IMG/VR virus record: IMGVR_UViG_3300020020_000167
Location: 1 to 22,195 of that record
Source of the DNA: a virus
Length of the DNA stretch: 22,195 nucleotides
Direction: 5' to 3' (one strand)
Part shown: positions 2 to 15,919 of the stretch, in pieces
Numbering within the stretch: position 1 is the first letter of the stretch
Layout of the letters: each line of letters begins with the position of its first letter
Program-made: the position numbers and the translations under genes
Notes under the pieces: model-generated
Told to the model about the DNA's origin: nothing
What the model saw: the letters and a program-made list of their open reading frames with translations, nothing else
The model's database searches: none

Positions 2-2677
2 GTGTACCACAAGCAAGTAGCTCTCACCCTGGCTGCTCAGGGCTTTCGCGTCTTCCCTCTCCATGCATCGACGGGCTGCGATTGCGGTCGGACCCCTGGT
101 AAGGGCTTCGGCTTCTGCGACGAGAAGGCCCCGCGAAGGGCCGGTTGGGTAGGCGACGCTGCGGCGTCTCCTGATTGGGTCGAGCGCTCCTGGACACGGG
201 ACTACGGGATCGGTATTGCCACGGGCGAGGACTTCTTCGTCCTTGACGTGGATATGAAGGACGGGCGAGACGGGCTTGCATCCTTGGATGCGCTGGCCGC
301 TGGCCGGTCCTACGATACCGGCCTTGCCGCGCAGACCCCTTCCGGGGGCTGGCACTTCTACTACCGCAGCCCCAAAGGCAAGAGGTACACGATCGGCGCG
401 GGGCAGATCGGGGAGGGCCTCGATCACCGCTGCTACTCGGGGTACGTCGTCGCGCCGGGGACCCGCGTCGCCGCAGGAGAGTACCGCTGGGCGCTCGAGG
501 GCGAAGAGGCCGAGGTCCCGCCGTGGCTCCTGGAAAAGCTCACGGAGAAGAAGCCAGTCACGAAGAACTACGGGGAGGTAGCGTATGCAGGTCTCACCCC
601 GAGGGCGCTCACAGAGGCCGACCTCCGTGAGATGAGCACGGGAGGCCGCTGGGTTGATACGGTCTTCCGCGTTCTGTCAAACGAGTCCTGGGCTCCGAAG
701 GGCCTGCGGTACACAACGATTCGCGACTTTACGCTTGCCCTTCAGTACCGTTTCGGCCCGTTGCTCCCCGAGCCGTCCGCGCTGCTTTTCGAAGGGTCCT
801 GCCTTGCTGTCTGCACGGAAGGCGCGGATAACCCGCCTGACGTTGGCTGGGTGGCTGACTGGTTCGCGGACGCTGCCCGGATCGTGGACTGGTCTAAGGT
901 TGCTGCGGAGCGCTCGGCGCCTGTATCGCTGGACGAATTCCTTGCAGGGGCTCCGGTGAGGGCGCCGAAGATCGGCCGTGCCCTCGGACGGGAGGAGGTA
1001 GAGGCCCTGGGCTCTAAGCTCTCCCGGAAGAAGGATGAACGCTCGCAGAAGGTGGGCGCTCTTCTCTTGGCCTGGAAGGCTGACGGGGCCGCCGCCTGGA
1101 CTGCCGCCGAGACTCAAGAGGTAGCGCAGAAGCTCGCTTGGGAGCTGCCTTCGTTCGACCCGCTGCTCTCGGCAGGCCTCTTCGGGGCTGTGCTGGCTTC
1201 TCCCGAGGCGTTTGCCAAAGGCGCCGCGGCAGGGGCGAAGGCTGCCCTAGAGAAAGGCAAGTATGACTGGGACGATCTCGGAAACATGCAGAGGTTTCTC
1301 AAAGAGCACGGAGAGCGCTTGCGTGTGGTCTCCTCCTGGAACGTCAAGGGAGAGGGGCCGGGACGCTGGATCGCGTACGACGGCAAGCGCTGGGCTGTAG
1401 AGCAGGCGCCCTCCCTGGTAGAGGACGCAGCCGTACGGACCGTCCGGGGCATGGAGCAGCAAGCCATGGTCCTCGAGGACGAGGACCTCCGGAAGGCTTA
1501 CCTGGCCTGGGTGAAGCACTCGAAGACCCGAGGTGCTCGGCAGACCATGCTTGCGGACGCCAAGGGCTCCGTAGAGTTGTCGATATCCCACGACGCCTTG
1601 GACCGCGATCCGTGGCTGCTCAACGTGGCGAACGGGACCCTGGACCTGCGCTCCGGGGTGCTTCGCCCTCACGACCCTTCGGACCTTATGACGAAGCTGG
1701 CGCCTGTGGGGTACGACCCGGAGGCTACGTGCCCTACCTGGGAGCGGATGCTCTTGGGGTCCATGAACGCCAGCCCGGTCATGGTCGACTACCTTCAGCG
1801 CGTTCTGGGGTACTGCCTTACGGGCCTCGTTTCGGAGCAGTCGCTCTTCTTCGCCATCGGCGAGGGCGGCAACGGCAAGGGCACGATCCTGAATACAGTA
1901 CTTGAGATCCTGGGGGACTACGCGACGAAATGCCCTATGGATATGCTCCTGGCCACGCGGCAGAAGGCCCACGAGACAGAGCTGACCATGCTCTACCGTA
2001 CGAGGCTGGCTCTGGTCTCCGAGACCGAGCAGGGCCGCTCCTGGGCCGCTGCCAAGCTCAAGGAGCTAACAGGAGACGACCCCATCACGGCCCGCCGCAT
2101 GCGAGAGGACCACTGGACCTTCCTGCCGACACACAAGTTTATCGTCCTTTCGAACCACGAGCCAGTGGCCCACGATCAGAGCTACGGCATGCGCCGTCGT
2201 CTGCGCTGCGTGCCCTTTGAGGTGTCCTTTGAAGAGGGGCAGAGGGATACCAGGCTCCGGGAGAAGCTGCGCGCCGAGCTGCCGGGCATCCTGGCCTGGG
2301 CCGTTCGGGGCTGTCTGGCCTGGCAGGCGCAAGGGCTCCAGGAGCCGGAGAAGGTCAGGGAGGCAGCCGAGTCCTACTGGGAGCGCCAAGACACGTTTGC
2401 TCAGTTCTGGGACGAGTGCTGCACGGTCGAGGGGTCGAGCCCGGAGACGAGGCGCGAGGACATGATTGCAGAGTACCAAGCCTGGTGTCGCCTGAACGGG
2501 GACGAGCACCCGATGCGGCCTAAGGCGTTCTATGCCCGCGTCCGAGGGGTCAAGGGCGTAGAGGACAAGAAGAGCAACGGTAGCCGATCTTGGTCAGGAG
2601 TAGCCCTGAAAACGAGGCTACGGGGACAGGGCACTTGGAGTCCGCCACTGGCAGCGCCGGTGAAGAGGCCGAACTAA
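2..2677 (+). CDS. Bifunctional prim-pol primase / D5-type superfamily 3 helicase
   Basis: Predicted replication protein that makes primers and unwinds DNA at the phage origin. The N-terminal prim-pol domain covers roughly residues 5-180: a CxC near residue 26, the metal-binding DVD at 82-84 after GIATGEDFFVL, and SGGWHFYY with its His at about 118. The C-terminal helicase of the D5/P4-alpha type has the Walker A GEGGNGKG near 620, an acidic SETEQG near 670 and a sensor-like FIVLSNHEP near 715. Length (891 residues) and domain order match phage prim-pol-helicase fusions. The frame opens with a GTG at the second base of the window, so the real start may lie a few codons upstream; the visible N-terminus already looks like a normal prim-pol start. 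An AGGGCAC iteron lies inside its 3' end, and a terminator and candidate origin follow. Family assignment is strong; the origin link is inferred. Confidence 0.93.
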   Translation: MYHKQVALTLAAQGFRVFPLHASTGCDCGRTPGKGFGFCDEKAPRRAGWVGDAAASPDWVERSWTRDYGIGIATGEDFFVLDVDMKDGRDGLASLDALAAGRSYDTGLAAQTPSGGWHFYYRSPKGKRYTIGAGQIGEGLDHRCYSGYVVAPGTRVAAGEYRWALEGEEAEVPPWLLEKLTEKKPVTKNYGEVAYAGLTPRALTEADLREMSTGGRWVDTVFRVLSNESWAPKGLRYTTIRDFTLALQYRFGPLLPEPSALLFEGSCLAVCTEGADNPPDVGWVADWFADAARIVDWSKVAAERSAPVSLDEFLAGAPVRAPKIGRALGREEVEALGSKLSRKKDERSQKVGALLLAWKADGAAAWTAAETQEVAQKLAWELPSFDPLLSAGLFGAVLASPEAFAKGAAAGAKAALEKGKYDWDDLGNMQRFLKEHGERLRVVSSWNVKGEGPGRWIAYDGKRWAVEQAPSLVEDAAVRTVRGMEQQAMVLEDEDLRKAYLAWVKHSKTRGARQTMLADAKGSVELSISHDALDRDPWLLNVANGTLDLRSGVLRPHDPSDLMTKLAPVGYDPEATCPTWERMLLGSMNASPVMVDYLQRVLGYCLTGLVSEQSLFFAIGEGGNGKGTILNTVLEILGDYATKCPMDMLLATRQKAHETELTMLYRTRLALVSETEQGRSWAAAKLKELTGDDPITARRMREDHWTFLPTHKFIVLSNHEPVAHDQSYGMRRRLRCVPFEVSFEEGQRDTRLREKLRAELPGILAWAVRGCLAWQAQGLQEPEKVREAAESYWERQDTFAQFWDECCTVEGSSPETRREDMIAEYQAWCRLNGDEHPMRPKAFYARVRGVKGVEDKKSNGSRSWSGVALKTRLRGQGTWSPPLAAPVKRPN

Positions 2678-3159: not shown

Positions 3160-3188
3160 TTGCAAGCGTCCGCCGCAGGGCTTACGCT
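3160..3188 (+). promoter_or_regulatory. Promoter TTGCAA-17-TACGCT, leaderless type
   Basis: Member of a recurrent promoter family in this window: -35 TTGCAA, 17-base spacer beginning GCGTCCG, -10 TACGCT, then 6 bases before the ATG at 3195. A start site about 7 bases past the -10 would fall on the ATG itself, giving an mRNA with no leader. No Shine-Dalgarno sequence precedes that ATG. Confidence 0.65.
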
Positions 3189-3194
3189 CTGGGT

Positions 3195-3344
3195 ATGAAA
3201 GAATTCTCCCTAGACGTGTGGATTGACGGCGCCTGCGCGTTCCGACTCTTCGGGACGTCCTGGAAGGCCTTGCTCGCGCAAGCGCGGCACGTCCGAGACA
3301 TCGCGCCGAAAGGCTCGCTGAGGTTCGTAGGTCGGGCGCGCTGA
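3195..3344 (+). CDS. Small hypothetical protein (49 aa), leaderless start
   Basis: A 49-residue protein beginning MKEFSLDVWIDG and ending FVGRAR; no family recognised. The start is fixed by the promoter whose -10 hexamer ends 6 bases before the ATG. It has an amphipathic centre (WKALLAQARHVRDI) and a basic C-terminus. It is the first gene after the candidate origin, so it would be expressed from the first promoter of the accessory region. The gap to the next promoter is only 17 bases. Its reality rests on promoter fit and gene-like codon use rather than on homology. Confidence 0.6.
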   Translation: MKEFSLDVWIDGACAFRLFGTSWKALLAQARHVRDIAPKGSLRFVGRAR

Positions 3345-3361
3345 TTGGCCTCAAGTGATAA

Positions 3362-3390
3362 TTGACCTCGTAGGCTCTAGGGCGTACTCT
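3362..3390 (+). promoter_or_regulatory. Promoter TTGACC-17-TACTCT, leaderless type
   Basis: -35 TTGACC at 3362-3367, a 17-base spacer ending TAGGGCG, -10 TACTCT at 3385-3390, then exactly 6 bases to the ATG at 3397. Same layout as the promoters before 3195, 7271 and 8871. It overrules the upstream GTG at 3355, which would put the promoter inside the gene. Confidence 0.72.
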
Positions 3391-3396
3391 TTACTT

Positions 3397-3573
3397 ATGA
3401 CGAACATGAACAAAGCCGCTGACCTCCTCCTTCAGGCCGCTAGCTACGAGATCGCCGCCCTTAGCGCTTCCGAGGAGGCCCTTGCGATGGATTACCGGAT
3501 CTTGGCGCAACGCGCTCGGACCCAGGCTGCCTACTGGGCACGCCGCGAAGAGCGAAAGGCTCTTTGGGCATGA
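3397..3573 (+). CDS. Small hypothetical alpha-helical protein (58 aa)
   Basis: Begins MTNMNKAADLLLQ and ends REERKALWA; Ala/Glu/Arg-rich and predicted largely helical. No family recognised. The ATG at 3397 is chosen because a TTGACC-17-TACTCT promoter ends 6 bases before it and no ribosome-binding site is present; the in-frame GTG at 3355 lies upstream of the promoter. The TGA stop overlaps the next ATG as ATGA, so translation of the next gene is probably coupled to this one. Confidence 0.75.
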   Translation: MTNMNKAADLLLQAASYEIAALSASEEALAMDYRILAQRARTQAAYWARREERKALWA

Positions 3574-3866
3574 GCCCCTCTCTCAAGAAGCTTCAGGCCC
3601 TGGCTAACAGGGCAGCGGAGCGTATGTCCCGGGCTGCCGTAGAGTACGAGGCTGCGCTGAAGGCCTACAGCAAGGCGCATAATGCCGTCTTGGCTTTCGA
3701 CGAAGCCGACCTGGCGCGAGATGACGAGCGTACTGTCTCTAGGCTCTCTATTGCTATCAGGCAAGCGGCAGAGGACTGCATGTCCGGCAAGCTTTCCGTA
3801 GAGGCTAGCTTGGCTCTGAACAAAGCTCTCTGGGACGAGGCAAGGGCCGCAGGGCTGACCTCCTGA
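3570..3866 (+). CDS. Hypothetical helical protein (98 aa)
   Basis: Starts at the ATG of an ATGA overlap with the previous gene rather than at the TTG two codons upstream. The product (MSPSLKKLQALANRAAERMS, ending RAAGLTS) is rich in Ala, Glu, Arg and Lys and looks like a helical hairpin or short coiled coil. No known domain recognised. It resembles its upstream neighbour in composition, and the pair may form a complex, but that is a guess from position only. A 62-base gap follows before the HNH endonuclease frame. Confidence 0.75.
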   Translation: MSPSLKKLQALANRAAERMSRAAVEYEAALKAYSKAHNAVLAFDEADLARDDERTVSRLSIAIRQAAEDCMSGKLSVEASLALNKALWDEARAAGLTS

Positions 3867-3928
3867 TTCTCCCGACACGTTGCTGTGCGAAGGCTCGGAA
3901 GAAGCGCTAATGGCTAGGAAGAACAGCC

Positions 3929-4303
3929 TTGTGCCGCAGCGAAACACTAAGTACACTGCCGGTATGTCCTTGGCAGCGAACGCTTTACCTGCACCGTCTC
4001 GTCCTTCAGCCCCCCAAAGGTGTGCCTGTCGACCACATAAACGGGGACGGGCTAGACAACAGGAAAGAAAACCTGCGGCTGTCCTCGTACTCCGAGAACT
4101 CCTACAACCGTCGGCTACCTACGCACAACACCAGCGGGCAGAAGGGTGTTTACTGGGCAAAGCTCCAGAACAAGTGGCACGCCCGGATAGGCGTTGACGG
4201 CAAGCGCGTGCACCTGGGCTTCTTCGATTCGTTCGAGGAAGCCTGTGCTGTCTTCCAAGCAGCGGCCCAGAAGTACCATGGCGTTTTCTTCCGGGAGTCC
4301 TAG
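3929..4303 (+). CDS. HNH homing endonuclease with AP2 domain, N-terminus apparently disrupted
   Basis: A typical phage HNH-AP2 homing endonuclease that would cut a specific DNA site to spread its own gene. The HNH core is intact: YLHR with His at about 22, VDHINGDGLDN with D35-H36, and KENLR with Asn at 48. The DNA-binding AP2 domain follows at about 68-120 (NTSGQKGVYW, ending FQAAAQKYHGVF). The usual 40-60 residue N-terminal portion (a CGAVALVDD-type module, as in the ORF at 8638) is missing. The only start in this frame is a poor TTG at 3929. A better ATG at 3910 opens a different frame (MARKNSLVPQRNTKYTAG), so a one-base frameshift between 3929 and about 3966 is likely. The catalytic half may still be made, but the gene may be decaying. 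Confidence 0.8.
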   Translation: MCRSETLSTLPVCPWQRTLYLHRLVLQPPKGVPVDHINGDGLDNRKENLRLSSYSENSYNRRLPTHNTSGQKGVYWAKLQNKWHARIGVDGKRVHLGFFDSFEEACAVFQAAAQKYHGVFFRES

Positions 4304-4306
4304 GTC

Positions 4307-4603
4307 ATGGGGTGGAAGAACCTCGCAGAGGACATTGCAGAGGAGCTGAGCTCCCTCGAGGGCCGCGAAGACTTCGGAGATCGGCTCACCCTCCACGCCG
4401 CGAAGACTCGCAACGCCCAAGCGGCGAACGCAAGGAACAGGGCCTATCGTAAGCGGCGCAAAGAGGCCGGGCTCAAGGACCCCTATCGCCCTCAGCGGAA
4501 CCGGAAGCGTAAGAAGCGCCCTTGGACCGCTGCACGAACCGTGAAACAGAGGGAACGAAGAGCCAAGGAGCGATTGGCCCGTAAAGATAAAGACAAAGCG
4601 TAG
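4307..4603 (+). CDS. Hypothetical highly basic protein (98 aa)
   Basis: ATG preceded by GGGAG with about 8 bases spacing. The N-terminus (MGWKNLAEDIAEELSSLEG) is acidic and helical; the rest is extremely Arg/Lys-rich (AYRKRRKEAG, NRKRKKRPW, KQRERRAKERLARK), which suggests nucleic-acid binding. The protein at 4835 has the same layout: an M-x-W-x-x-L start, an EE-containing helix, then a long basic tail. The two may be diverged paralogues. No named family recognised. The 3' end carries the promoter for the next gene. Confidence 0.72.
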   Translation: MGWKNLAEDIAEELSSLEGREDFGDRLTLHAAKTRNAQAANARNRAYRKRRKEAGLKDPYRPQRNRKRKKRPWTAARTVKQRERRAKERLARKDKDKA

Positions 4604-4618
4604 GGCTTCGGTCATACT
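4590..4618 (+). promoter_or_regulatory. Promoter AAGACA-17-CATACT, leaderless type
   Basis: Inside the 3' end of the preceding gene. AAGACA (4 of 6 to the TTGACA consensus), 17 bases, then CATACT (4 of 6 to TATAAT), ending 6 bases before the ATG at 4625. The spacer carries the family element TAGGGC. Reading the -10 instead as TACTCT two bases downstream leaves only 4 bases. Weaker than its relatives. Confidence 0.5.
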
Positions 4619-4624
4619 CTTCTT

Positions 4625-4831
4625 ATGACGAACGAATACACGGTGGACGGCGAAGGTTTCAGCTCTTACTTCGCGGCGATCGCGGCGGCCAAGACCAAGG
4701 GGGCCGAGGTCATCGAGACCGCAACGGGCCTTAGCCGCTGGCGCCCCGCTTTGGCCGCAAAGGCTAAGACCCGCCACGTGCTCGTCAACGCGGACGGCAG
4801 CAAGACCGAATTCGGGAAGGTTCGCCGCTAA
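4625..4831 (+). CDS. Small hypothetical protein (68 aa), leaderless start
   Basis: Begins MTNEYTVDGEGFSSYFAAI and ends TEFGKVRR. The pattern of short strands and one helix (YFAAIAAAKTKGAEVIETATG) suggests a small alpha/beta fold. No family recognised. The ATG sits 6 bases after a candidate -10 element and lacks a Shine-Dalgarno sequence. The next gene starts 3 bases after the stop. Confidence 0.75.
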   Translation: MTNEYTVDGEGFSSYFAAIAAAKTKGAEVIETATGLSRWRPALAAKAKTRHVLVNADGSKTEFGKVRR

Positions 4832-4834
4832 CCC

Positions 4835-5200
4835 ATGGCCTGGGACGATCTCTCTTCCGAGCTTGAAGAAACCTTCGCAGGCCTCCAAGCCTGGGAGCCT
4901 GGCCTGCCCCAGGCCGTCAAGGCGGCCCGGAAGGCGCCTCCCCCGGACCCTCGGAGGGCGGCGCTCGAGAGGGCCGCTACGGCGCTCATAGAGGCTCACG
5001 ACGCCCCGGCACGGGAGCAGGCTCAGCGAGACCGCGTAGCAGCTTGGTGTCGGGAGAATCAGGAGGTCAGGAGCCAGAGGCAGCGGCAGAGACGTGCGGC
5101 CCGGCGAGAACGCGAAGGCCGTAGCCCTATGGGTCCAAAGCCGGAGAACGCCTGGCGCTGTGGGCCGAAGCGAAAAAGAGCATTGCAAGCGTCCGGCTAA
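4835..5200 (+). CDS. Hypothetical basic protein (121 aa), possible paralogue of the 4307 product
   Basis: Starts MAWDDLSSELEETFAGLQ, matching in pattern the start of the 4307 product, and continues into an Arg-rich tail (QRQRQRRAARREREG) ending PKRKRALQASG. Probably nucleic-acid binding by composition; no family recognised. The ATG is 3 bases after the previous stop. The last codons and the TAA stop lie inside the next promoter: the coding for ALQASG-stop is also the TTGCAA -35 and the start of its spacer. Confidence 0.72.
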   Translation: MAWDDLSSELEETFAGLQAWEPGLPQAVKAARKAPPPDPRRAALERAATALIEAHDAPAREQAQRDRVAAWCRENQEVRSQRQRQRRAARREREGRSPMGPKPENAWRCGPKRKRALQASG

Positions 5201-5211
5201 AGGCGTACCTT
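5183..5211 (+). promoter_or_regulatory. Promoter TTGCAA-17-TACCTT with leader and strong RBS
   Basis: -35 TTGCAA, spacer starting GCGTCCGGCTAA (holding the stop codon of the upstream gene), -10 TACCTT. Unlike its relatives it does not abut a start codon: a strong AAGGAGG at 5217-5223 precedes the GTG at 5230. Spacer similarity to 7236 and 8836 is obvious. Confidence 0.65.
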
Positions 5212-5229
5212 GAGGCAAGGAGGAGTACC

Positions 5230-5500
5230 GTGAAAGAACTAAAGCTGTCCTGCGGCGCTGTGACGTTGGTGGACGAGCGGTGCCCCCGCCCCCCGTCGCA
5301 AGCGTGGCCCTCGTAAGAACAACAAGAGCGGCCTGCTTGGTGTTCGCGCAAGAAAAGGTGGATGGGAAGTGAAGTGCCGAGAGCATGTCGGCACCTTCCC
5401 GACAAAGCTAGCCGCCGCTATCGCGTACAACATCGCCGCTCTTCGGGCGTACGGTTTTGATGCCTATCAGAACCCTGTGTTCGCGGGAGACGTGCTATGA
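5230..5500 (+). pseudogene. Degenerate HNH/AP2 endonuclease, frameshifted at a C-run and lacking HNH
   Basis: From the GTG at 5230 (good AAGGAGG upstream) the frame reads KELKLSCGAVTLVDER, the N-terminal module of HNH-AP2 homing endonucleases also seen at 8638, then stops at 5314. One frame over, from about 5264 to the TGA at 5498, an AP2 domain is plain: KNNKSGLLGVRARKGGWEVK, then HVGTFPTKLAAAIAYNIAAL. The frames meet around a C-tract (CCCCCGCCCCCC) at 5282-5294, so removing one C would rejoin them. The HNH core is absent even after rejoining. This looks like an internally deleted remnant; a sequencing error or programmed slippage at the C-run is the alternative. Its TGA overlaps the next ATG. 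Confidence 0.72.
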
Positions 5501-5577
5501 GGGCTATCAAGGTCCTCGGGCTCTTGCTCCTGGCTGCGATCCTCTTGCTCGGCTCGAAACAGGAGACCGAAGAATGA
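5497..5577 (+). CDS. Single-pass membrane micropeptide (26 aa)
   Basis: M-RAIK followed by a hydrophobic segment VLGLLLLAAILLLG and a polar tail SKQETEE. One transmembrane helix or uncleaved signal anchor with a positive start and an acidic end, so the C-terminus should be outside. ATGA overlaps at both ends tie it to the AP2 remnant upstream and to the next gene downstream. Too short for family assignment. A holin-like or host-membrane role is possible but unsupported. Confidence 0.6.
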   Translation: MRAIKVLGLLLLAAILLLGSKQETEE

Positions 5578-5735
5578 ACCGTTGGCAATACCGCGCCCAC
5601 AGGCGAGCGCAAGCTAAGCGCTCCTGGGATGCTATGGTGTACGTGCTGGCTCTCGCTCTGGTGTACCGTATGGGTACGGAAGGAGCCCTCGAGAGCGCTT
5701 GGCTCTGGGCAAAGCAGAACGGATGGAAGCCATGA
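5574..5735 (+). CDS. Small hypothetical protein with one hydrophobic segment (53 aa)
   Basis: MNRWQYRAHRRAQAKRSW is strongly basic and precedes a hydrophobic stretch AMVYVLALALVYRMG, then ESAWLWAKQNGWKP. Probably membrane-associated with the basic N-terminus in the cytoplasm. The ATG at 5574 is in an ATGA overlap with the preceding stop, and its own stop overlaps the next ATG in the same way. No family recognised. Confidence 0.65.
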   Translation: MNRWQYRAHRRAQAKRSWDAMVYVLALALVYRMGTEGALESAWLWAKQNGWKP

Positions 5736-5923
5736 GCCCTAAGCAAAAATTCAGGATGCTCCAGAAGCGCTTCGCCAAAGCGGTGCGCTCCGGCCAAGCT
5801 CACGAAGGAGACATCCTCCGTTCCCACAACGGGGTCCAGCTCGGACGCTTTCACTGTAAGTACCGCGGGTGGATGGGCCACAGCGGAGAAGACTGCGTTA
5901 CCCTCGAAGGGTGGCTATCATGA
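5732..5923 (+). CDS. Small hypothetical protein (63 aa)
   Basis: MSPKQKFRMLQKRFAKAVRS starts a basic helical N-terminus; the C-terminal half (HNGVQLGRFHCKYRGWMGH, then DCVTLEGWLS) looks like a small beta fold with two cysteines. No family recognised. It starts and ends in 4-base ATGA overlaps within a cassette of tiny genes, which argues that it is translated. Confidence 0.65.
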   Translation: MSPKQKFRMLQKRFAKAVRSGQAHEGDILRSHNGVQLGRFHCKYRGWMGHSGEDCVTLEGWLS

Positions 5924-6096
5924 CCTCGGAGTACCTCCCACCTAGAGACCCTCTGGCATCTCTCGGCGTGCCCATACCTGACGTTTTTGACGATCGTGTC
6001 GTGGTCTACCAACCCGTTCGGAGAGGCGTAGTCTCCTACTCCGTTCGGAAGCGCTGCTACTACCCCTGCCCTCTGAAACCTTGTGAGGCCCCATGA
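5920..6096 (+). CDS. Small hypothetical protein (58 aa)
   Basis: MTSEYLPPRDPLASLGVP then a strand-rich centre (DRVVVYQPVRRGVVSYSVRK) and a Cys/Pro-rich end (CYYPCPLKPCEAP). No family recognised; the three C-terminal cysteines might bind metal. The ATG is in an ATGA overlap with the previous stop, and the next gene starts in the same manner at its end. Confidence 0.6.
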   Translation: MTSEYLPPRDPLASLGVPIPDVFDDRVVVYQPVRRGVVSYSVRKRCYYPCPLKPCEAP

Positions 6097-6221
6097 CTCT
6101 CGCGTTCTCTTTCCTCCTCGCCCTCGCTTTCGCCTGGACGGGCGAGCCGCTCTGGGTCTCGGGCCTGGCCCTCTTCGGGGGCTTCGGCGCGCTTGAGATT
6201 CTCTTCGGAGGTGAGCCGTGA
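6093..6221 (+). CDS. Small two-helix membrane protein (42 aa)
   Basis: MTLAFSFLLALAFAWTG and WVSGLALFGGFGALEILFGG form two hydrophobic segments separated by a short polar turn (EPL), a helical-hairpin pattern. The size is small for a holin, but the topology is compatible with a pinholin-like or membrane-modulating protein; no endolysin or spanin gene is nearby, so no function is claimed. ATGA overlap with the gene before and GTGA overlap with the ORF after. Confidence 0.55.
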   Translation: MTLAFSFLLALAFAWTGEPLWVSGLALFGGFGALEILFGGEP

Positions 6222-6286
6222 GACGCGTCCTTAGCTTCGATCGCCCTCCCACCTCCTGCTCTTACCCGGGCTGCGGTAGGTCGTGA
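6218..6286 (+). pseudogene. Truncated zinc-knuckle protein, N-terminal fragment (22 aa)
   Basis: GTG in a GTGA overlap opens a 22-residue frame ending SCSYPGCGRS. The C-x4-C with a Pro-Gly centre matches the first half of the zinc knuckles in the GIY-YIG (9944) and HNH (12544) endonucleases (for example CTVPGC and CSTPGC). It stops right after the first two cysteines, where the sequence changes to an apparently foreign segment. The simplest reading is the beginning of a knuckle-bearing gene cut by an insertion or replacement. A genuine micropeptide cannot be excluded. Confidence 0.45.
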
Positions 6287-6612
6287 AGTCGGCTAACTAC
6301 GCCCCGGTGTACTGCGCGCTGTATCCACGGCTCGCGGAGATCACGCGCAAGCACGGCTACGCACTGGCCGTCCACGGCACGCTCGGCCGCGACATGGACT
6401 TGATTTGTGTCCCCTGGGTGGACGAGCCGAGCACGCCGGAAGCTGTGATGGCTGAAATGACGTCCACCTTTGATCTGTGGCTACTGTTCGAGGGCAAGGG
6501 CACCGCGAAGAAGCATGGCCGGGTCGCTTACACCATCAGCATCGGCTTCGGCGAGTGCGCGATTGACCTCTCGTTCATGCCGCGCCACGAGGCGGCGACC
6601 CCATGCACCTAG
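6283..6612 (+). CDS. Phage nucleotidyltransferase-fold-like hypothetical protein (109 aa)
   Basis: Product MKSANYAPVYCALYPRLAEI, then HGYALAVHGTLGRDMDLICV, resembles from memory a small family common in phages of Proteobacteria. G-T-L-x-R-D-M-D-L recalls the GS/GT-xxRDxD motif of nucleotidyltransferase folds; no activity is proven. It ends CAIDLSFMPRHEAATPCT. The GTG start overlaps the stop of the truncated ORF before it. Richness in GCG and CGC codons differs by eye from the neighbouring genes, supporting a separate origin. It forms the first part of an apparently inserted segment at about 6283-6810. Confidence 0.62.
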   Translation: MKSANYAPVYCALYPRLAEITRKHGYALAVHGTLGRDMDLICVPWVDEPSTPEAVMAEMTSTFDLWLLFEGKGTAKKHGRVAYTISIGFGECAIDLSFMPRHEAATPCT

Positions 6613-6810
6613 CTGTTCGACTCCTACAGCGGCAGCAGCTCGGCCGGCGCACGCGCAAGCTGCGCCCGCTGTTTCCGCCCATGGGCATCGAGTACCAGCG
6701 CGCGGCCGTTGCCTACGCGCGCGCCTGCGAGAGCATCATCCGTAGCGAGTTACTCGCCAAGCTGCCCTACATGCTCGACCAGCAGCTCGCGCCCACCACG
6801 CGCGCGGACG
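6603..6810 (+). pseudogene. 5' part of a gene truncated at a mosaic junction
   Basis: ATG at 6603 overlaps the end of the previous gene and opens MHLAVRLLQRQQLGRRTRKL, then PLFPPMGIEYQRAAVAYARA, ACESIIRSELLAKLPYMLDQ. Basic, helical, and somewhat like the N-terminus of a phage head-morphogenesis protein (weak recognition). The frame runs on to 6908, but after about 6810 it is out of phase with a gene-like sequence in another frame, so those last residues are probably meaningless. It is interpreted as the 5' part of a longer gene cut where the foreign segment ends. Confidence 0.45.
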
Positions 6811-7029
6811 ACCTGGGACAAAGAGCAGTACCTCTACGGAGCTGGCTGGCGTTGCGAGAAGCATCAGGGCCTAGCGCTCTGCGCTGTCTGCGTTCACTGG
6901 GTGCCTAGCGCCTATCCCGGGACAACGTTCGGCCAGTGCCGACGCTATGCCCCTCGGCCTGACTGGCCCGAGACCGACCGCGACGACTACTGCGGAGACT
7001 TCCGGCAGGGCGAAGAAGAGAAACCTTGA
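6811..7029 (+). pseudogene. Cys-rich small protein whose start was lost at the junction
   Basis: The frame TWDKEQYLYGAGWRCEKHQG, then CAVCVHW, GQCRRYAPRPDW and DDYCGDFRQGEEEKP has the spacing of a widespread small Cys-rich family with C-x2-C, then G-x-C-R-R-x-A/P-P, then D-D-x-C-G, probably metal-binding (from memory). Adding an ATG before ACC at 6811 would give MTWDKEQY, a natural start, so the original start codon was probably just left of 6811 and was replaced by the inserted segment. Upstream the frame is open to 6709 but reads non-gene-like residues. Its stop overlaps the TTG of the next gene as TTGA. Confidence 0.55.
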
Positions 7030-7253
7030 CCCTGCGTCTCTGGCAACCCCAGCGCTGCCGCCCTGGCGTCCCGAACCTCAAGGAGAGCGCTGCCTTCAAC
7101 GGCCGTGTCTGGCTTTGCGGCTGCGGCGCACGCTGGGAGCTTCGGCGAGACCCTTACGAGCAGCTAGGAGCCGATCCCCGCTGGCTCTACTGCGTTGCTT
7201 GCGGCTTGTACGAAGACGGGCACGCAAAAGAAACCTTGACCGCGTCCGGCTAG
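7026..7253 (+). CDS. Small zinc-ribbon-like protein (75 aa)
   Basis: Starts at a TTG in a TTGA overlap with the preceding stop. The sequence VWLCGCGARWELRR, then RWLYCVACGLYEDGH, has two CxC/CxxC pairs about 30 residues apart, a zinc-ribbon pattern. No named family. The last codons (ETLTASG-stop) are also the -35 and spacer of the promoter for the next gene, as at the end of the 4835 gene. The N-terminal residues MTLRLWQPQRC are plausible but the TTG start is unverified. Confidence 0.62.
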   Translation: MTLRLWQPQRCRPGVPNLKESAAFNGRVWLCGCGARWELRRDPYEQLGADPRWLYCVACGLYEDGHAKETLTASG

Positions 7254-7264
7254 GAGCGTACCTT
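7236..7264 (+). promoter_or_regulatory. Promoter TTGACC-17-TACCTT, leaderless type
   Basis: -35 TTGACC, spacer starting GCGTCCGGCTAGG and ending GCG, -10 TACCTT at 7259-7264, then AGACAA and the ATG at 7271. The stop codon TAG of the upstream gene is part of the spacer. Exactly the geometry of the promoters at 3160, 3362 and 8836. Confidence 0.72.
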
Positions 7265-7270
7265 AGACAA

Positions 7271-7378
7271 ATGGCTCCCCTCCCCAAAACAAAGACTGAG
7301 ATTCTCGCCTCCCTCGGCCTGAAGCCCATGGTCCCTAACCCCATCCTGGTAGCCCGCGCGGCTAAGGAGAAGAAGTGA
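7271..7378 (+). CDS. Micropeptide (35 aa), leaderless start
   Basis: MAPLPKTKTEILASLGLKPM, then PNPILVARAAKEKK. The ATG lies 6 bases after the -10 of a good promoter and there is no Shine-Dalgarno sequence. The stop shares its A with the ATG of the next gene (TGATG), so it may act partly as a leader peptide that couples translation of the HNH-AP2 fusion. No family recognised. Confidence 0.6.
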   Translation: MAPLPKTKTEILASLGLKPMVPNPILVARAAKEKK

Positions 7379-8220
7379 TGAACAACAGCGGAAACTACCT
7401 AGGCCAGTACGCCGGAGCCCAGAACGCTTTCGGCCGCCCGAGCGAAGAGGCGAAGATCCCTACCCCATCCGAGGTCCGAGCGAAGCATGAGCGGGAGATC
7501 GCAGCTGACGAGGAGCGCTTCAAGAACGCCGCGCGCGGCGCCCGTAAAGGGGAAGGACCTAAAGGCCTTATCATTCTCATGCATCGCGCTCTTCTTGTCA
7601 CAGACCTAGACGTCGACCACATCAACCGCAATGGCCTAGACAACCGTAAGGGGAACCTGCGCGCCGCATCTCGCGGTGAGAACCTCTGCAACAGGAGGAT
7701 TTGCGGGAGAAACACGTCAGGCTACAAGGGCGTGCACTACGAGAAACGCAGATGCCATTGTGTGGCTAGGATTCAGAAAGACGGCAGGCCCTACCACCTT
7801 GGCTCCTTCGACACCAAGGAAGAAGCGGCGCAGGCGTACGACCAAGCGAGCCTGGGTATCCACGGAGCTTTCGCCGCGCCTAACGACCTTATCGGCCCCT
7901 ACGTTCCTCCCTCCGAGGAGAAGAAGACACGTCCGCGGTACCCTCGGGGCTCTTCCGGCTTCCGGGGAGTCTCAAGGTTCAAGAGTCGATGGAGAGCAAT
8001 CGCAGGCAACCCACCCGGCGTGCACCCGCGGCAACGCGTTGTGGGGTGCTACGACACGCCACTTCAGGCAGCGATTGCCTACAACGTCGCTGTAGGCTTT
8101 GACGCGCCCGAATACAACGACGTGTTCTCGGGCGAAGCACAGAGTCGCCAAGGGGAGAAAGTCGACGCGCTTGCGAAGCGCTCTTCCCTGGGGTCTCTCT
8201 TCGGTAGGGGCCTTTCGTGA
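7378..8220 (+). CDS. HNH homing endonuclease with two AP2 domains and an atypical N-terminal fusion
   Basis: 280 residues from the ATG at 7378 (TGATG overlap; the GTG one codon earlier is a less likely start). The HNH core has His near 69, VDHINRNGLDN with D80-H81, and GNLRA with Asn at 93. A first AP2 domain spans about 112-168 (NTSGYKGVHY, then HLGSFDTKEEAAQAYDQAS) and a second about 190-245 (GSSGFRGVSR, then GCYDTPLQAAIAYNVAVGF). The first 60 residues (MNNSGNYLGQYAGAQNAFGR and following) are not the normal N-terminal module, and the tail after 250 (RQGEKVDALAKRSSLGSLFG) also looks unrelated. The nuclease may have landed in frame inside another phage gene. The duplicated AP2 could widen its DNA contact. 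Confidence 0.82.
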   Translation: MNNSGNYLGQYAGAQNAFGRPSEEAKIPTPSEVRAKHEREIAADEERFKNAARGARKGEGPKGLIILMHRALLVTDLDVDHINRNGLDNRKGNLRAASRGENLCNRRICGRNTSGYKGVHYEKRRCHCVARIQKDGRPYHLGSFDTKEEAAQAYDQASLGIHGAFAAPNDLIGPYVPPSEEKKTRPRYPRGSSGFRGVSRFKSRWRAIAGNPPGVHPRQRVVGCYDTPLQAAIAYNVAVGFDAPEYNDVFSGEAQSRQGEKVDALAKRSSLGSLFGRGLS

Positions 8221-8288
8221 TCTCCCGGCTCTTGCTCTGCTTCTTCCTCTGGCTGGTCTACGGCTGGGATCTTTCTCCTGCCTTCTGA
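8217..8288 (+). CDS. Membrane micropeptide (23 aa)
   Basis: GTG in a GTGA overlap with the HNH-AP2 stop opens MISRLLLCFFLWLVYGWDLS, ending PAF: one hydrophobic helix after a short basic start. Similar in scale to the 26- and 42-residue membrane peptides upstream. No family assignable. Coding status rests on the stop/start overlap and the clean hydrophobic segment. Confidence 0.42.
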   Translation: MISRLLLCFFLWLVYGWDLSPAF

Positions 8289-8300
8289 AAGAAAAACAAC

Positions 8301-8645
8301 ATGTCTAAAGCCCGTACCGCTAACCTCGCTTTGAGACTTGAGAGCCCGCTCAAAGCCGGGCCGCTAGAGCTTCAGCTCACCCTTCCGGAGTCTGCCTCTA
8401 TCCTCGAGGCTGCCGAGGCCTCCGCGCTCCGGCCCGGGACTTACGCTCGGCGCGTCGTGACCTCGGTTTTTGGGGAGGAAGCGACTCTCGAGAACGTGAA
8501 ACTGCATGCTAAAGAGATGAATCTTCCTGTTTCTGTTCTGTGCAGGATCTTGGTTCTGGCAGCCTCCGGGCACCCGTCCGATGACCAACTGGAGACTTAC
8601 AAGGCTCTGGCGCGAAGAGCAGGAAAGGAGCTGCGTCATGGCTGA
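8301..8645 (+). CDS. Hypothetical protein (114 aa)
   Basis: ATG 12 bases after the previous ORF, with only a weak GAAAGA upstream. Product MSKARTANLALRLESPLKAG, then LELQLTLPESASILEAAEAS; the C-terminal half is helical and ends ALARRAGKELRHG. LRPGTYARRVVTSVFGEEA might be a short DNA-binding helix pair, but no motif is firm. No family recognised. Its stop lies 8 bases inside the next gene. Confidence 0.7.
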   Translation: MSKARTANLALRLESPLKAGPLELQLTLPESASILEAAEASALRPGTYARRVVTSVFGEEATLENVKLHAKEMNLPVSVLCRILVLAASGHPSDDQLETYKALARRAGKELRHG

Positions 8646-8829
8646 GATAACCCTGCGGTGTGGCGCTGTCGCGCTTGTGGATGACGATGACTACGACGGA
8701 CTAAACAAACTAACCTGGTGCCTGTCTGCTCTTGGCGCCGTTGTCGTAGCCCTGAACGACCAGAAAGCAGACGAGCGGAGGAAGGCCTTCCTCCGCAAGA
8801 AGTACGGGAGGATCTGGGGCATCTTCTGA
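8638..8829 (+). CDS. Orphan N-terminal module of an HNH/AP2 endonuclease (63 aa)
   Basis: MAEITLRCGAVALVDDDDYD, then GLNKLTWCLSALGAVVVALN is the typical N-terminal strand-helix module that precedes HNH in phage HNH-AP2 homing endonucleases. After about residue 43 it becomes a short basic tail (QKADERRKAFLRKKYG) and stops: HNH and AP2 are both absent. The ATG overlaps the preceding gene by 8 bases. It shares L-x-CGAV-x-LVD with the remnant at 5230. It could be decay debris, or a short DNA-binding protein kept after losing the nuclease. Confidence 0.62.
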   Translation: MAEITLRCGAVALVDDDDYDGLNKLTWCLSALGAVVVALNDQKADERRKAFLRKKYGRIWGIF

Positions 8830-8835
8830 AGGGTC

Positions 8836-8864
8836 TTGACCCCGTCCGGCCTAGGGCCTACTCT
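8836..8864 (+). promoter_or_regulatory. Promoter TTGACC-17-TACTCT, leaderless type
   Basis: Best copy of the family: TTGACC at 8836-8841, spacer starting CCGTCCGGCCTAGGGCC, TACTCT at 8859-8864, then six bases to the ATG at 8871. It lies wholly between genes and drives the metalloprotease gene. Transcription would start at or next to the A of the ATG. Confidence 0.78.
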
Positions 8865-8870
8865 AGCCGT

Positions 8871-9479
8871 ATGAAGACCGCGCTCCTGCTCCTCGCCTCG
8901 CTCCTTACGGCTTGCGCCTCCCTCGAGAGCCCCGAAGCTCCCGAAGTCTCCGCGCTCTCGGGCGCTCCTCTCCTGCCGTACGAGCCTCCCCCTCCGGCAG
9001 AGCCTTACATCCTTGCGGAGCATTCCGAGGACGCGGCCTTTCCGGAGATCCTCGAAGGAGACGCTAAGCTCTTCGCGGGCTGGTCTCCGGACACCATCCC
9101 CGCAGTCAAGGCGCTCAGGCACACCGACTGCTCGGAGGCCAACGTTTCCGCTGCCGTGGAGATCGTCCGGGCGGCAGGGCAGGAGATCGCCCTTGAGTTT
9201 GTGGACGTTCTCCCGGAACGGGGCACCGAAGGCGTTATCCGCTTGCGCCTCGAGGCGCCCGCGGACGGCAAGGCAGGCAACGGAGCGTGGTTCACGATCG
9301 GCAAGCGCGTCGTCTCCGGGGATATCCTCGTAAAGCGTTGCGACGTGGACGTAATCTCTCACGAGCTTTTTCACACGGTCGGCTTCGGGCATTCCTCGGA
9401 TCCGACGCACCTACTATACCACCAAGTGGGCGGAACGATCGTCTCCCCGGGCGAGAAAGCGCAGCTGGCCAGCCGATGA
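8871..9479 (+). CDS. Lipoprotein zinc metalloprotease (matrixin/metzincin-like), 202 aa
   Basis: Predicted exported protease. A lipoprotein signal peptide is clear: MKTALLLLASLLTAC with lipobox LTAC and the lipidated Cys at 15, followed by a Pro-rich linker to about 45. Near the C-terminus HELFHTVGFGH (164-174) is a perfect metzincin HExxHxxGxxH zinc site, followed by S as in matrixins (HS). The usual Met-turn methionine is not obvious; HLLYH (180-184) stands there. At about 190 mature residues it is a minimal catalytic domain. The product should be tethered on the outside of a membrane and cleave proteins there. Expression is from a leaderless-type promoter. The stop overlaps the next ATG (ATGA), coupling it to a GNAT protein. 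Protease family confident; substrate unknown. Unusual cargo for a phage. Confidence 0.88.
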   Translation: MKTALLLLASLLTACASLESPEAPEVSALSGAPLLPYEPPPPAEPYILAEHSEDAAFPEILEGDAKLFAGWSPDTIPAVKALRHTDCSEANVSAAVEIVRAAGQEIALEFVDVLPERGTEGVIRLRLEAPADGKAGNGAWFTIGKRVVSGDILVKRCDVDVISHELFHTVGFGHSSDPTHLLYHQVGGTIVSPGEKAQLASR

Positions 9480-9901
9480 GTACCCTACCCAAAGACTTGC
9501 TAGAGCACCTCGTAATCGTCTACCCCGAGATGGCAGCGGCCTCCGTGAACCCGTCCTTCCTGGAGGTCCTCAAGGCCTTCGAGGGCGGCACCTGGGGCCA
9601 CGTCTACGGGGCTCACTGGCTCCTCGAGATAGACCCGAGGACGCCGCACAGGGCGAGCGTGAGCGTGGCAGTAGAGCCGTCGTTCAGGGGCAGGGGGTTA
9701 GGGACCCGCATGCTAGAGCAGGCCGAGGCGAAGGCCCGAGAGCTTGGCTGCGCGTGGCTGACGGGCTGGCTTTGGAAACAGAATGCGGCAGCCCTCCGGA
9801 TGGATGTCGCTTTCGGCTTCCGCATCGCAGGTGAGTTGCCAGACGCTTACCGGGGGCCTCAAGGCGTTCGGGATATGGTACTAGTGGTGAAAGAGCTTTG
9901 A
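9476..9901 (+). CDS. GNAT-family N-acetyltransferase (141 aa)
   Basis: Contains the GNAT acetyl-CoA binding motif: SVSVAVEPSFRGRGLGTRML with R-x-G-x-G at about 71-76, followed by a helix (EQAEAKARELGCAWLTGWLW) and KQNAAALRMDVAFGFRIAG, the typical end in which a residue-rich helix precedes a G-F turn. It would transfer an acetyl group to an amine on a small molecule or protein. The length is that of a single GNAT domain. The ATG at 9476 lies in an ATGA overlap with the protease gene, so the two are probably co-translated. The substrate cannot be predicted. Confidence 0.88.
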   Translation: MSTLPKDLLEHLVIVYPEMAAASVNPSFLEVLKAFEGGTWGHVYGAHWLLEIDPRTPHRASVSVAVEPSFRGRGLGTRMLEQAEAKARELGCAWLTGWLWKQNAAALRMDVAFGFRIAGELPDAYRGPQGVRDMVLVVKEL

Positions 9902-9911
9902 AGCCAGGGCT

Positions 9912-9931
9912 CTTTACAGAGCTTTTTACAG
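9912..9931 (+). repeat. Tandem site CTTTACAG-N4-tTTTACAG, copy 1
   Basis: CTTTACAG at 9912-9919 and TTTTACAG at 9924-9931, 12 bases apart, just upstream of the GIY-YIG gene. Also readable as TTTACA-N6-TTTACA. The first half-site overlaps a small hairpin (GCTCT-TTAC-AGAGC then TTTTT, 9909-9927) that could act as a weak terminator after the GNAT gene. Confidence 0.6.
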
Positions 9932-9943
9932 GGAGTAAAGAAC

Positions 9944-10750
9944 GTGCGGATCTGTAGCGTTGGTGTGTGCGGGAAAAAGCACAAAGCTAAGGGGCTTTGC
10001 GCCATGCACTGGAGCCGCGCAGCTAGAGGGCAGCCTTTGGTACAAACGCCAGAAGAGCTTGCCCTACGGCGCACAGGCAAAAAGAAGCTGCGGTTGTGCT
10101 CCGCCCCAGACTGCGCTAGCAAACACTTTGGCCGGGGCCTGTGCAAAGAGCACTACCAAAGCTGGCGCAAGAGACAGCCAGACCTGATCGCGCGCAGCCG
10201 AGCACGGGACGCGGCCAGGAAAGAAGCAAAGCGCCTTTGGCGAGCAGCCTGGCGTGCAAAGAACCCGGAGAGAGCTAAAGTCGAAACAGATCGCGCCTGG
10301 CAGCGACAGAAAGAGCTGTGGGCCGAACGCGTCCGATCAGGCCCCGTGCACGTACCGGAGCAAACCGGTGTGCACTACGTTTACATGTGGGAGAACCTGG
10401 TCAACGGCAAGAGGTACATAGGCAAGGGTCAAGGAGAACGGGCAGTTCGCCATTTGCGGGACGCGCAACGCGGCAAGGGAAGGCTGCTGGCAAAAGCCTT
10501 ACACAAGTACGGCACAGCCTCGTTCCGACTGACGTATTTAGCAAGCGGCCTGTCTCACGAGGAGACACTAGCCCTGGAGATCAGGCACATAGCCGAGCAG
10601 AACACAGTCTGGCCGAGCGGGTACAACATCACGAAAGGAGGGGAAGGCCGACAGGGCCCTTTTTCCGACGAGACCCGAGCACGTATGTCACTCGCGCAAA
10701 AAGCTGTGCGGGCCAGAAAACAGTCTTTACAGCTTTCTTTACAGAAATAG
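9944..10750 (+). CDS. GIY-YIG homing endonuclease with two zinc knuckles and NUMOD3-like tail (268 aa)
   Basis: GTG start after a region of CTTTACAG repeats. Two N-terminal zinc knuckles of form C-x4-C-x9-C-x2-H: C4/C9/C19/H22 and C52/C57/C67/H70, both with KGLC or RGLC. A basic linker (80-130) leads to the GIY-YIG nuclease at about 143-230: YVYMWENLVNGKRYIGKG, then ERAVRHLRDA with the catalytic-region Arg, a Glu near 212 (ALEIRHIAEQ), and GYNITKGGEG. The end SDETRARMSLAQKA resembles NUMOD3, a DNA-binding motif of phage homing nucleases. It would cut a specific site to promote its own spread. Knuckles of the same type precede the HNH nuclease at 12544. A second repeat pair is embedded in its last codons. 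Confidence 0.9.
   Translation: MRICSVGVCGKKHKAKGLCAMHWSRAARGQPLVQTPEELALRRTGKKKLRLCSAPDCASKHFGRGLCKEHYQSWRKRQPDLIARSRARDAARKEAKRLWRAAWRAKNPERAKVETDRAWQRQKELWAERVRSGPVHVPEQTGVHYVYMWENLVNGKRYIGKGQGERAVRHLRDAQRGKGRLLAKALHKYGTASFRLTYLASGLSHEETLALEIRHIAEQNTVWPSGYNITKGGEGRQGPFSDETRARMSLAQKAVRARKQSLQLSLQK
10725..10744 (+). repeat. Tandem site CTTTACAG-N4-CTTTACAG, copy 2
   Basis: Two perfect CTTTACAG units 12 bases apart, embedded in the last codons of the GIY-YIG gene (coding SLQLSLQ) and about 105 bases before the small terminase. The repeat therefore flanks the GIY-YIG gene on both sides in the same orientation. Confidence 0.6.
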
Positions 10751-14244: not shown

Positions 14245-14435
14245 GCAAAGCCCTAGACAAGCACAAAGCAAAGCTCCTCCCGCTGCCGACGGCAGACGAG
14301 ACCCTGGCCTTGCTCCTGCGCCGCGCCGAGAGCGACGCGCCTTTCCGCGTCCTCGGGAGCACGAGAGCCACGCGCGCCGCTCTCCGTAAGGCGGAGCACG
14401 AGAAGCGCAAGCGGGAGAAGGCCGCGGAGCCTTGA
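14241..14435 (+). CDS. Small basic helical protein (64 aa)
   Basis: The ATG in the ATGA overlap is preferred to the GTG five codons upstream. MSKALDKHKAKLLPLPTADE, then TLALLLRRAES and a Lys/Arg/Glu-rich end (RKAEHEKRKREKAAEP). Helical and possibly nucleic-acid binding; no family recognised. Its stop overlaps the TTG of terL (TTGA), so it probably governs terL translation by coupling. Confidence 0.68.
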   Translation: MSKALDKHKAKLLPLPTADETLALLLRRAESDAPFRVLGSTRATRAALRKAEHEKRKREKAAEP

Positions 14436-15877
14436 GCGACCTTGCCCCGGTAGTCGCCCGGCTTCGGCAGATCGAGGACTGGAAGAAAGCGATCCGTTCG
14501 GACATGTTCGCTCAGCAGCTCGCTCTGCATGACGATCCTGCCCGTAAGAAGGCCTGTCACTCCGGCCGTCGTGCCGGAAAGTCCGAGGGCATCCCACGCT
14601 CTTGCCTCCTTGATCTCCTGGACGCGGGACCGCAGGACGTCGTGCTCCTCGGAGGCGAGACGCTCAAGAAGGCCAAGAGTCTGTATCAAGACAAGGTCCG
14701 AGATGTCGTCAACAGATACCGTTTGCCATTCTCGTACAACGGGCAGGAGGCAACGTGGACAACGCCTTGGGGGGCTAAACTACACTTCTGGGGGGCCAAG
14801 GACGAGGGAGCGATCGCTCTGATCCGGGGCCTGCGCCTTCGCAGCGCTCGATTTGACGAGGTGGCCACGTTCGCCTCGAGGCTCCCGCACCTAGTCGATC
14901 AGGTCGTCATGCCTGCTTTGGGCGACCTCAATGGCGGCCTCAGCCTGTACGGCACGCCTAGCGTGACCTGCTCCGGGGGCTACTATGATATCTGCGCCGG
15001 CAAGGACGCCAAGAAGTGGAAAGTCTACCGCTGGGACGCCAGACAGAACCCGTACTTCCGCAACGGCAAAGCCGAAGAGTATTTTGCTGAAGTTCTAGCC
15101 GAGAACGGTTGGGACCCCGACAATGCGACCTATCTGCGCGAATATATGGGCTTTTGGAGGGCAGATCCGGATTTCCTTGTGTACCGCTACGTAGAGGATT
15201 TCAACGATCTCCCGTCCCTGCCTGAGGTCTATGACGTAAAGACATGGTCGCACACCATGGCCGTAGACTTCGGGTACGAAGACGATTGCGCTTGGGTTGT
15301 TCTAGCGAGCCATCCGCACCGGAAGGATATCGTTGTCGTTGACTGCATGAAGCAAAACCACCTGATCGTGGACGAGGTGGCAGAGATTACAGCCAAGTTC
15401 TGCGCGAAATACCAACCGTCTAGGCTCATCGGTGACGGGGCGGGCAAGAGCTATACGACCTACTGGAACTCTCGCTTTGCGGGTCGGGAGTTCGTCAAGG
15501 GGCACACACTCCTACCGATGCTTAGTGCCGATAAGCTAGGGAAGCGTGCCCACATCGACCTCGTGAATACGGAGTTCCGCACAGGGCGTATGAAGCTCCT
15601 GCGGCCTACTTGCGACGAACTGGCCGGGGAGCTTTCTACGCTCCCGTGGAAGGACGGCATGCGCGCCCTTGAACACCCGAGCTACGATAACCACCTTGCG
15701 GACGCCTTGCTCTACGCCTACATGGCTCACTACTCGTACCTGAATTCACTGCCTGTAAAGACGTCTGTAAAGACTAACAGGCCAGACGACCAAGAGCAGA
15801 TCGCCCGCGAGGAGGCCCGCTACCGTGAGCGACAGGGCCGGGACTGGTACGATGACGGGAGCGGCTGTGCGGACTAG
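14432..15877 (+). CDS. terL: Terminase large subunit, ATPase and nuclease (481 aa)
   Basis: Motor and headful or site nuclease of DNA packaging, docking on the portal. ATPase domain: Walker A SGRRAGKS (44-51) and Walker B ARFDE with D142-E143. RNase H-fold nuclease: metal-binding Asp in AVDFGYEDD (279), in IGDGAGKS (335) and in HLADALLYAY (424). Length and spacing are normal for a complete large terminase. TTG start in a TTGA overlap with the preceding gene; the weak GGAG upstream and rare start imply low or coupled translation. It is separated from terS by about ten genes, including an HNH nuclease. Two CTGTAAAG repeats lie in its 3' end, coding VKTSVKT. Confidence 0.95.
   Translation: MSDLAPVVARLRQIEDWKKAIRSDMFAQQLALHDDPARKKACHSGRRAGKSEGIPRSCLLDLLDAGPQDVVLLGGETLKKAKSLYQDKVRDVVNRYRLPFSYNGQEATWTTPWGAKLHFWGAKDEGAIALIRGLRLRSARFDEVATFASRLPHLVDQVVMPALGDLNGGLSLYGTPSVTCSGGYYDICAGKDAKKWKVYRWDARQNPYFRNGKAEEYFAEVLAENGWDPDNATYLREYMGFWRADPDFLVYRYVEDFNDLPSLPEVYDVKTWSHTMAVDFGYEDDCAWVVLASHPHRKDIVVVDCMKQNHLIVDEVAEITAKFCAKYQPSRLIGDGAGKSYTTYWNSRFAGREFVKGHTLLPMLSADKLGKRAHIDLVNTEFRTGRMKLLRPTCDELAGELSTLPWKDGMRALEHPSYDNHLADALLYAYMAHYSYLNSLPVKTSVKTNRPDDQEQIAREEARYRERQGRDWYDDGSGCAD
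15753..15772 (-). repeat. Tandem site CTTTACAG-N4-CTTTACAG, copy 3 (inverted)
   Basis: On the + strand CTGTAAAG at 15753 and 15765, again 12 bases apart, inside the terL coding sequence. The orientation is opposite to the other three pairs, so it faces copy 4 as a divergent arrangement about 137 bases away. Confidence 0.6.
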
Positions 15878-15889
15878 TGGCGATTTCTT

Positions 15890-15919
15890 CTTTACAGCCA
15901 TCTTTACAGGGCGTATACT
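15890..15919 (+). promoter_or_regulatory. Tandem site copy 4 overlapping a TTTACA-17-TATACT promoter
   Basis: CTTTACAG at 15890 and 15902 form the fourth pair. The first TTTACA (15891-15896) is also a fair -35, and 17 bases later lies TATACT (15914-15919), 5 of 6 to the -10 consensus. The second repeat sits in the spacer. A protein bound here could repress or activate the promoter for portal, scaffold and capsid genes. Confidence 0.68.

Follow-up and report, generated by a model that had tools for sequence, protein, structure and literature searches.

A repeated promoter that places predicted transcription starts on start codons in an uncultured tailed phage

Analysis of a viral DNA sequence of 22,195 bases (an entire IMG/VR entry, referred to here as the window) revealed one distinctive promoter that is used at least five times between the replication and packaging genes. 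Four of its copies place the predicted RNA start at the start codon, so that translation of the genes behind them probably does without the usual ribosome-binding leader. The positions of the promoters, of the genes that follow them and of the other features discussed are presented in Table 1.

The record is classed as virus, and its source is an uncultured tailed phage that is unclassified. In addition to the functions listed in Table 1, the protein scan identified a portal protein, a major capsid protein and an SU10-type adaptor. Searches of phage records with blastn, and with tblastn using the terminase, portal, capsid and primase proteins, returned distant matches only, as did IMG/VR scans. 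The best distant relative (L209) carries terminase, portal and capsid genes in the same order (24-27% identity), and a search of that record for promoters of this type found none. The tRNA and Rfam searches of the window gave no match. An intergenic, iteron-like cluster of GGGCAC/GTGCCC repeats (positions 2777-2990) adjoins the primase-helicase gene and is a candidate replication origin.

Table 1. Features of the window and, in the last four lines, promoter arrays in other phage records (PWM, weight matrix; SD, Shine-Dalgarno sequence)
Feature	Position	Strand	Basis
Prim-Pol/D5 primase-helicase	2-2677		protein scan
Small-gene run, including AP2/HNH endonucleases	about 3195-9901		protein scan
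Promoter copy 1, TTGCAA-N17-TACGCT, then 6 bases, ATG	3160-3188	+	motif scan, PWM leave-one-out
49-aa ORF (MKEFSLDVWIDG...), ATG at predicted +1, weak coding score, no SD	3195-3344	+	codon model, SD scoring
Promoter copy 2, TTGACC-N17-TACTCT, then 6 bases, ATG	3362-3390	+	motif scan, PWM
58-aa ORF (MTNMNKAADLL...), ATG at predicted +1	3397-3573	+	codon model, SD scoring
Weak or decayed relative, GACAAA-N17-TACTCT, ATG 4 bases downstream	4592-4620	+	PWM, 12.7 bits
68-aa ORF (MTNEYTVDGEG...), no clear SD (-2.4)	4625-4831	+	codon model, SD scoring
Promoter copy 3, TTGCAA-N17-TACCTT, predicted +1 at 5218	5183-5211	+	PWM
Predicted 12-nt leader AGGAGGAGUACC with SD, ahead of GTG 5230	5218-5229	+	SD scoring, transcript prediction
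Promoter copy 4, TTGACC-N17-TACCTT, then 6 bases, ATG	7236-7264	+	motif scan, PWM
35-aa ORF (MAPLPKTKTEIL...), ATG at predicted +1	7271-7378	+	codon model, SD scoring
Promoter copy 5, TTGACC-N17-TACTCT, then 6 bases, ATG	8836-8864	+	motif scan, PWM
202-aa lipoprotein-like ORF, LLTAC lipobox, HExxHxxGxxH, ATG at predicted +1	8871-9479	+	codon model, SD scoring
TTTACAG pair, before gene 9944	9913-9931	+	
TTTACAG pair, before gene 10850	10726-10744	+	
Terminase large subunit	14432-15877		protein scan
TTTACAG pair, near terminase gene end	15753-15771	-	
TTTACAG pair, between terminase and portal modules	15891-15909	+	
TTGAC-18-TANNNT-6-ATG array, 21 sites, G004 (L085; 163,760 bases)	74744-116426 of that record	all one strand	
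TTGAC-18-TANNNT-6-ATG array, 10 sites, G005 (L088)			
TTGAC-18-TANNNT-6-ATG array, 9 sites, G006 (L095)			
TTGAC-18-TANNNT-6-ATG array, 8 sites, G009 (L108)			

An earlier note, made from the letters of this DNA, had described four promoters (at 3160, 3362, 7236 and 8836) that end exactly 6 bases before an ATG, and all four are present there in the form TTGCAA/TTGACC-17-TACNNT-6-ATG. A further full copy of the family, at 5183 (TTGCAA-17-TACCTT), had been overlooked. The family consensus is TTGaCc-gCGTcCGGCtagGGCg-TACtcT. A weight matrix built on the 29 promoter bases, and holding no start-codon information, scored these five members at 34.6-38.3 bits; the next site, at 4592, reached 12.7 bits and the background at most 8.7. 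In leave-one-out runs, every true member scored above all other positions. In four of the five members retrieved by the matrix an ATG lies at exactly N6, the frequency of ATG being 0.0088 per position. The comparison with shuffled sequence that the note had proposed was run on the window: the pattern TTGN3-N17-TANNNT-N6-ATG has five matches on the plus strand and none on the minus strand, with a mean of 0.01 in dinucleotide shuffles (n = 200), none of which reached five matches. Four of the five are family copies, and the remaining one (3929) is unrelated to the family.

The match at 3929 (TTGTGC...) falls within an HNH-like region. It was counted as chance, because it is unlike the family and the ATG that follows it (3964) is not in the reading frame of the conserved HNH residues. 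The fifth promoter that had been proposed, at 4590, did not stand as such: in the family register its ATG follows after 4 bases, and its score falls between those of the true members and the background. The register originally chosen, AAGACA-N17-CATACT-N6-ATG, is shifted by two bases and is possible, but lies outside that of the family. This candidate is at best a degraded relative.

With two hexamers and a 17-bp spacer in all five copies, the family has the sigma70-type layout (spacer of 16-18 bp). From this geometry, transcription would start 7 bases after the -10 element; the predicted +1 is an A in all five members. A generic sigma70 scan (9/12 match) did not list the family sites, whose -10 (TACNNT) and -35 (TTGACC/TTGCAA) elements are weak compared with the E. 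coli consensus TTGACA/TATAAT. High-GC hosts, where the -10 is of the form TANNNT, can do without a match to TTGACA/TATAAT (PMC3160421).

The earlier claim that the four genes lack an SD, whereas many other genes of the window have one, was borne out. The four starts scored -1.5, -1.5, +0.5 and -1.5 kcal/mol (region -16 to -4), which is very weak, against a median of -6.2 kcal/mol over 37 other starts (Mann-Whitney p = 0.001); this comparison, based on 41 scored starts, is approximate, because the start codons were chosen by us with the help of a codon model. The gene behind the promoter at 5183 begins with a GTG at 5230, 18 bases downstream of the promoter, and among the 41 its SD (-10.9 kcal/mol) ranks as the strongest. 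One phage offers a natural comparison: behind the same promoter, either the start codon is at +1 and an SD is absent, or there is a 12-base leader with the strongest SD scored. Among the sequence arguments for the predicted leaderless expression, this contrast between members of one family is the strongest. The gene at 5230 looks frameshifted (AP2/HNH fragment), and its SD may therefore be a remnant of an intact gene. Within their first 40 nt the four predicted leaderless transcripts would fold weakly (-1.8 to -4.3 kcal/mol, the median for the other ATG starts being -6.2 kcal/mol), and the AUG is almost wholly unpaired in their predicted 5' ends. The N6 distance in four of the five members, the lack of an SD there, the strongest SD at the member placed off +1, the A at every predicted +1 and the weakly folded predicted 5' ends lend good support to the proposal that these genes are probably leaderless.

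Some of the leaderless candidates are short (35-58 aa), and the ORF at 3195 has a weak coding score in the codon model. The ORF at 3397 is followed, with a stop/start overlap, by the gene at 3570-3866, and that at 7271 by an SD-led AP2/HNH endonuclease gene (about 7375-8220, start 7378). A GNAT acetyltransferase gene (9476-9901) overlaps the end of the ORF at 8871. The HExxHxxGxxH sequence of the lipoprotein predicted from the latter ORF is a metzincin-like zinc protease motif, and a weak Astacin match was obtained (E=0.0065). Three AP2/HNH fragments (3929-4303, 5230-5497 and 8638-8829) have frames that look shifted or truncated in comparison with the intact gene.

It is likely, judging from these features, that host-sigma-type promoters head small operons whose first gene is leaderless or, in the fifth case, preceded by a 12-base leader with an SD. 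One promoter type would be reused at the heads of short operons, in the region flanked by the replication gene on one side and the packaging and head genes on the other, presumably for early expression. Host RNA polymerase with the housekeeping sigma factor would most likely start 7 bases after the -10 element, which in four operons is the A of the ATG; the first cistron would then be leaderless, its 5'-terminal AUG being bound by ribosomes. Downstream cistrons would be read by stop/start overlap (3570, 9476) or from their own SD (7378). In the operon at 5183 the start codon lies further on, and the short leader would carry the strong SD.

Among the five copies, the -35 and -10 boxes have mean pairwise identities of 0.70 and 0.77, and the 17-base spacer has one of 0.65; for the spacer, the random null is 0.26 and none of 20,000 trials gave a value as high. 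The six bases before the ATG (0.23) and the flanks (0.26-0.32) are at background, so that it is distance and not sequence that is conserved here: the six-base distance to the ATG is kept and the letters drift. The conserved spacer suggests that the copies either derive from a single promoter or are read by a sequence-specific regulator as well. It is conceivable, though we favor it less than the host-sigma reading, that the sites are phage-specific operator-promoters, whose spacer is recognized by a phage repressor or activator and whose leaderless spacing came second. The spacer is conserved almost as well as the boxes and far above the null, and the spacer-specific motif has 4 matches in a bacterial and archaeal genome collection, about the number expected by chance (about seven, our estimate from 18 fixed bases), which argues that this is not an ordinary host promoter; moreover, spacers are reused in other phages with leaderless arrays, e.g. 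TCAAGCAGAAAGG in L085. On the other hand, no regulator gene was identified within the window, no dyad symmetry is evident in the repeats, and duplication from a common ancestor accounts equally well for the similarity of the spacers, though the flanks are dissimilar. A combined reading, which we consider rather unlikely, is a phage-specific regulon: a phage regulator would recognize the spacer, and leaderless starts would let intact 70S ribosomes translate the set when host initiation is altered in infection. If this were true, the same strategy would have further, independent examples in the arrays of other uncultured phages.

Two other explanations appear improbable to a similar degree. Recognition by a phage-encoded sigma factor or polymerase would agree with the difference of the boxes from TTGACA/TATAAT and with the conservation of the entire 29-bp unit, but the two-box layout with a 17-base spacer is typical of host sigma70-type promoters, and no sigma factor or RNA polymerase was found among the ten proteins scanned from this record, which is a fragment. 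Recent DNA duplication (e.g. along with the HNH/AP2 endonuclease fragments), with the spacing inherited and not selected, would fit the abundance of broken AP2/HNH genes in the region and the single consensus common to the sites; it is opposed by the background identity of the flanks and of the six bases before the ATG, by downstream genes that are unrelated to each other, and by the copy at 5183, with its other start distance and an SD in compensation. Chance placement of promoter-like words before ATG codons, of which the match at 3929 does look like an instance, is hardly credible for the family as a whole and is refuted for the four main sites by the shuffle counts and the leave-one-out recovery of the members, the minus strand giving no match.

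Relatives with the same promoters were found neither by BLAST of phage records nor by IMG/VR and promoter-core scans. The IMG/VR promoter-core scan gave one exact core match (L006), with a GTG at N7, and 38 looser matches that included no second family member. In independent phage contigs, 130 TTGAC-18-TANNNT sites (the matches used for fetching excluded) have an ATG at distance 6 in 41 cases, at 7 in 11 and at 3-5 in none; the count of 41 is enriched, because the loci, which come from an IMG/VR scan for a related pattern, had been chosen for containing one such site and include relatives of each other. The sharp edge at distance 6 is nevertheless informative. When phage loci were fetched by the consensus promoter with no start-codon condition, the ATG stood at distance 6 in 12 of 145 cases; the count per position was otherwise about 3.

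Promoters with similar spacing are present in several further phage records (44-65% GC), and four records carry the arrays listed in Table 1; reversed-pattern controls for these arrays gave zero. As in the window, many leaderless-spaced promoters stand mostly before small genes, about 67-87 aa in L085, where several promoters have a common spacer. Their spacers differ from those of the window, to which no sequence relation was found, and BLAST of the other array-bearing phages gave no informative host. The arrangement therefore recurs among phages and is not confined to this window. Leaderless-spaced promoters can be detected in uncultured phages from their sequence, which corrects start-codon calls and supplies a testable promoter set. 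Two GC-rich phage records (L100 and L032) have similarly spaced promoters with a palindromic, TTGAC-N4-GTCAA-like -35 region, e.g. TTGACGTCGTCAAC, which suggests an operator over the -35 element.

The suggestion that the motif points to a host among the Deinococcota or Actinobacteriota found no support: its spacing is generic sigma70 geometry, leaderless genes are also described from other phyla, the motif is not enriched in the host lineages searched, and promoters with similar spacing stand in other phage records. The highest frequency of leaderless TA-led genes is that of Deinococcus-Thermus (39%), and they are common in Actinobacteria (19%), but delta-Proteobacteria (16%) and Acidobacteria (13%) are reported to have them too (PMC3160421). 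The genome-collection matches to the exact spacer-constrained motif include two from Verrucomicrobiota and one from Chloroflexi, with none titled Deinococcota or Actinobacteriota, and, since they are about the chance number, do not allow a host to be inferred.

Another repeated element of the window is TTTACAG, whose eight words (expected, 0.56 per strand) all form tandem pairs, four in number and exactly 12 bp apart. The pair at 15891 overlaps the best sigma70-like site of the window (TTTACA-17-TATACT). The pairs are possibly a second regulatory or packaging element; the pair pattern used as a query found no relative.

Several known systems resemble the one described here. In leaderless TA-led genes (Zheng et al. 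2011, PMC3160421; Zhong et al. 2025, PMC12340547) the -10 element likewise lies a fixed short distance before the start and an SD is absent; in four of the five copies the first T of TANNNT is about 12 bp before the start (6 bases between), and no SD precedes it. The same -10 placement was experimentally validated in Deinococcus radiodurans (PMC12340547). Those studies concern host genes (phages are not mentioned by Zhong et al. 2025, PMC12340547), whereas the present genes are those of a phage and their promoters also have a -35 element and a conserved spacer. In phages, the promoters PL1, PR2 and PL2 of cluster O mycobacteriophages (Corndog group) are predicted to be leaderless SigA promoters, with +1 at the start codon; they belong to another phage and differ in sequence, and the account of them is not known to describe a spacer common to those promoters (PMC4351075). 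The phage collection yielded no record related to the window beyond distant structural proteins, and thus gave no sign of membership in cluster O. A leaderless promoter with +1 at the start codon was also predicted for gene 90 of Adephagia (PMC11373665). The SAS/ESAS of cluster K mycobacteriophages are, like the family described here, short conserved elements repeated upstream of many start codons, but SAS is an extension of a ribosome-binding site, situated 3-9 bp before the start, with a presumed role in translation, whereas the present element is a promoter and the SD is absent (PMC11373665). The conserved 13-bp ribosome-binding-type sequence of SAS has no counterpart here, the bases adjacent to the ATG being unconserved. 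Leaderless promoters are an already known kind, which is unusually clear in this phage and comes with an internal control.
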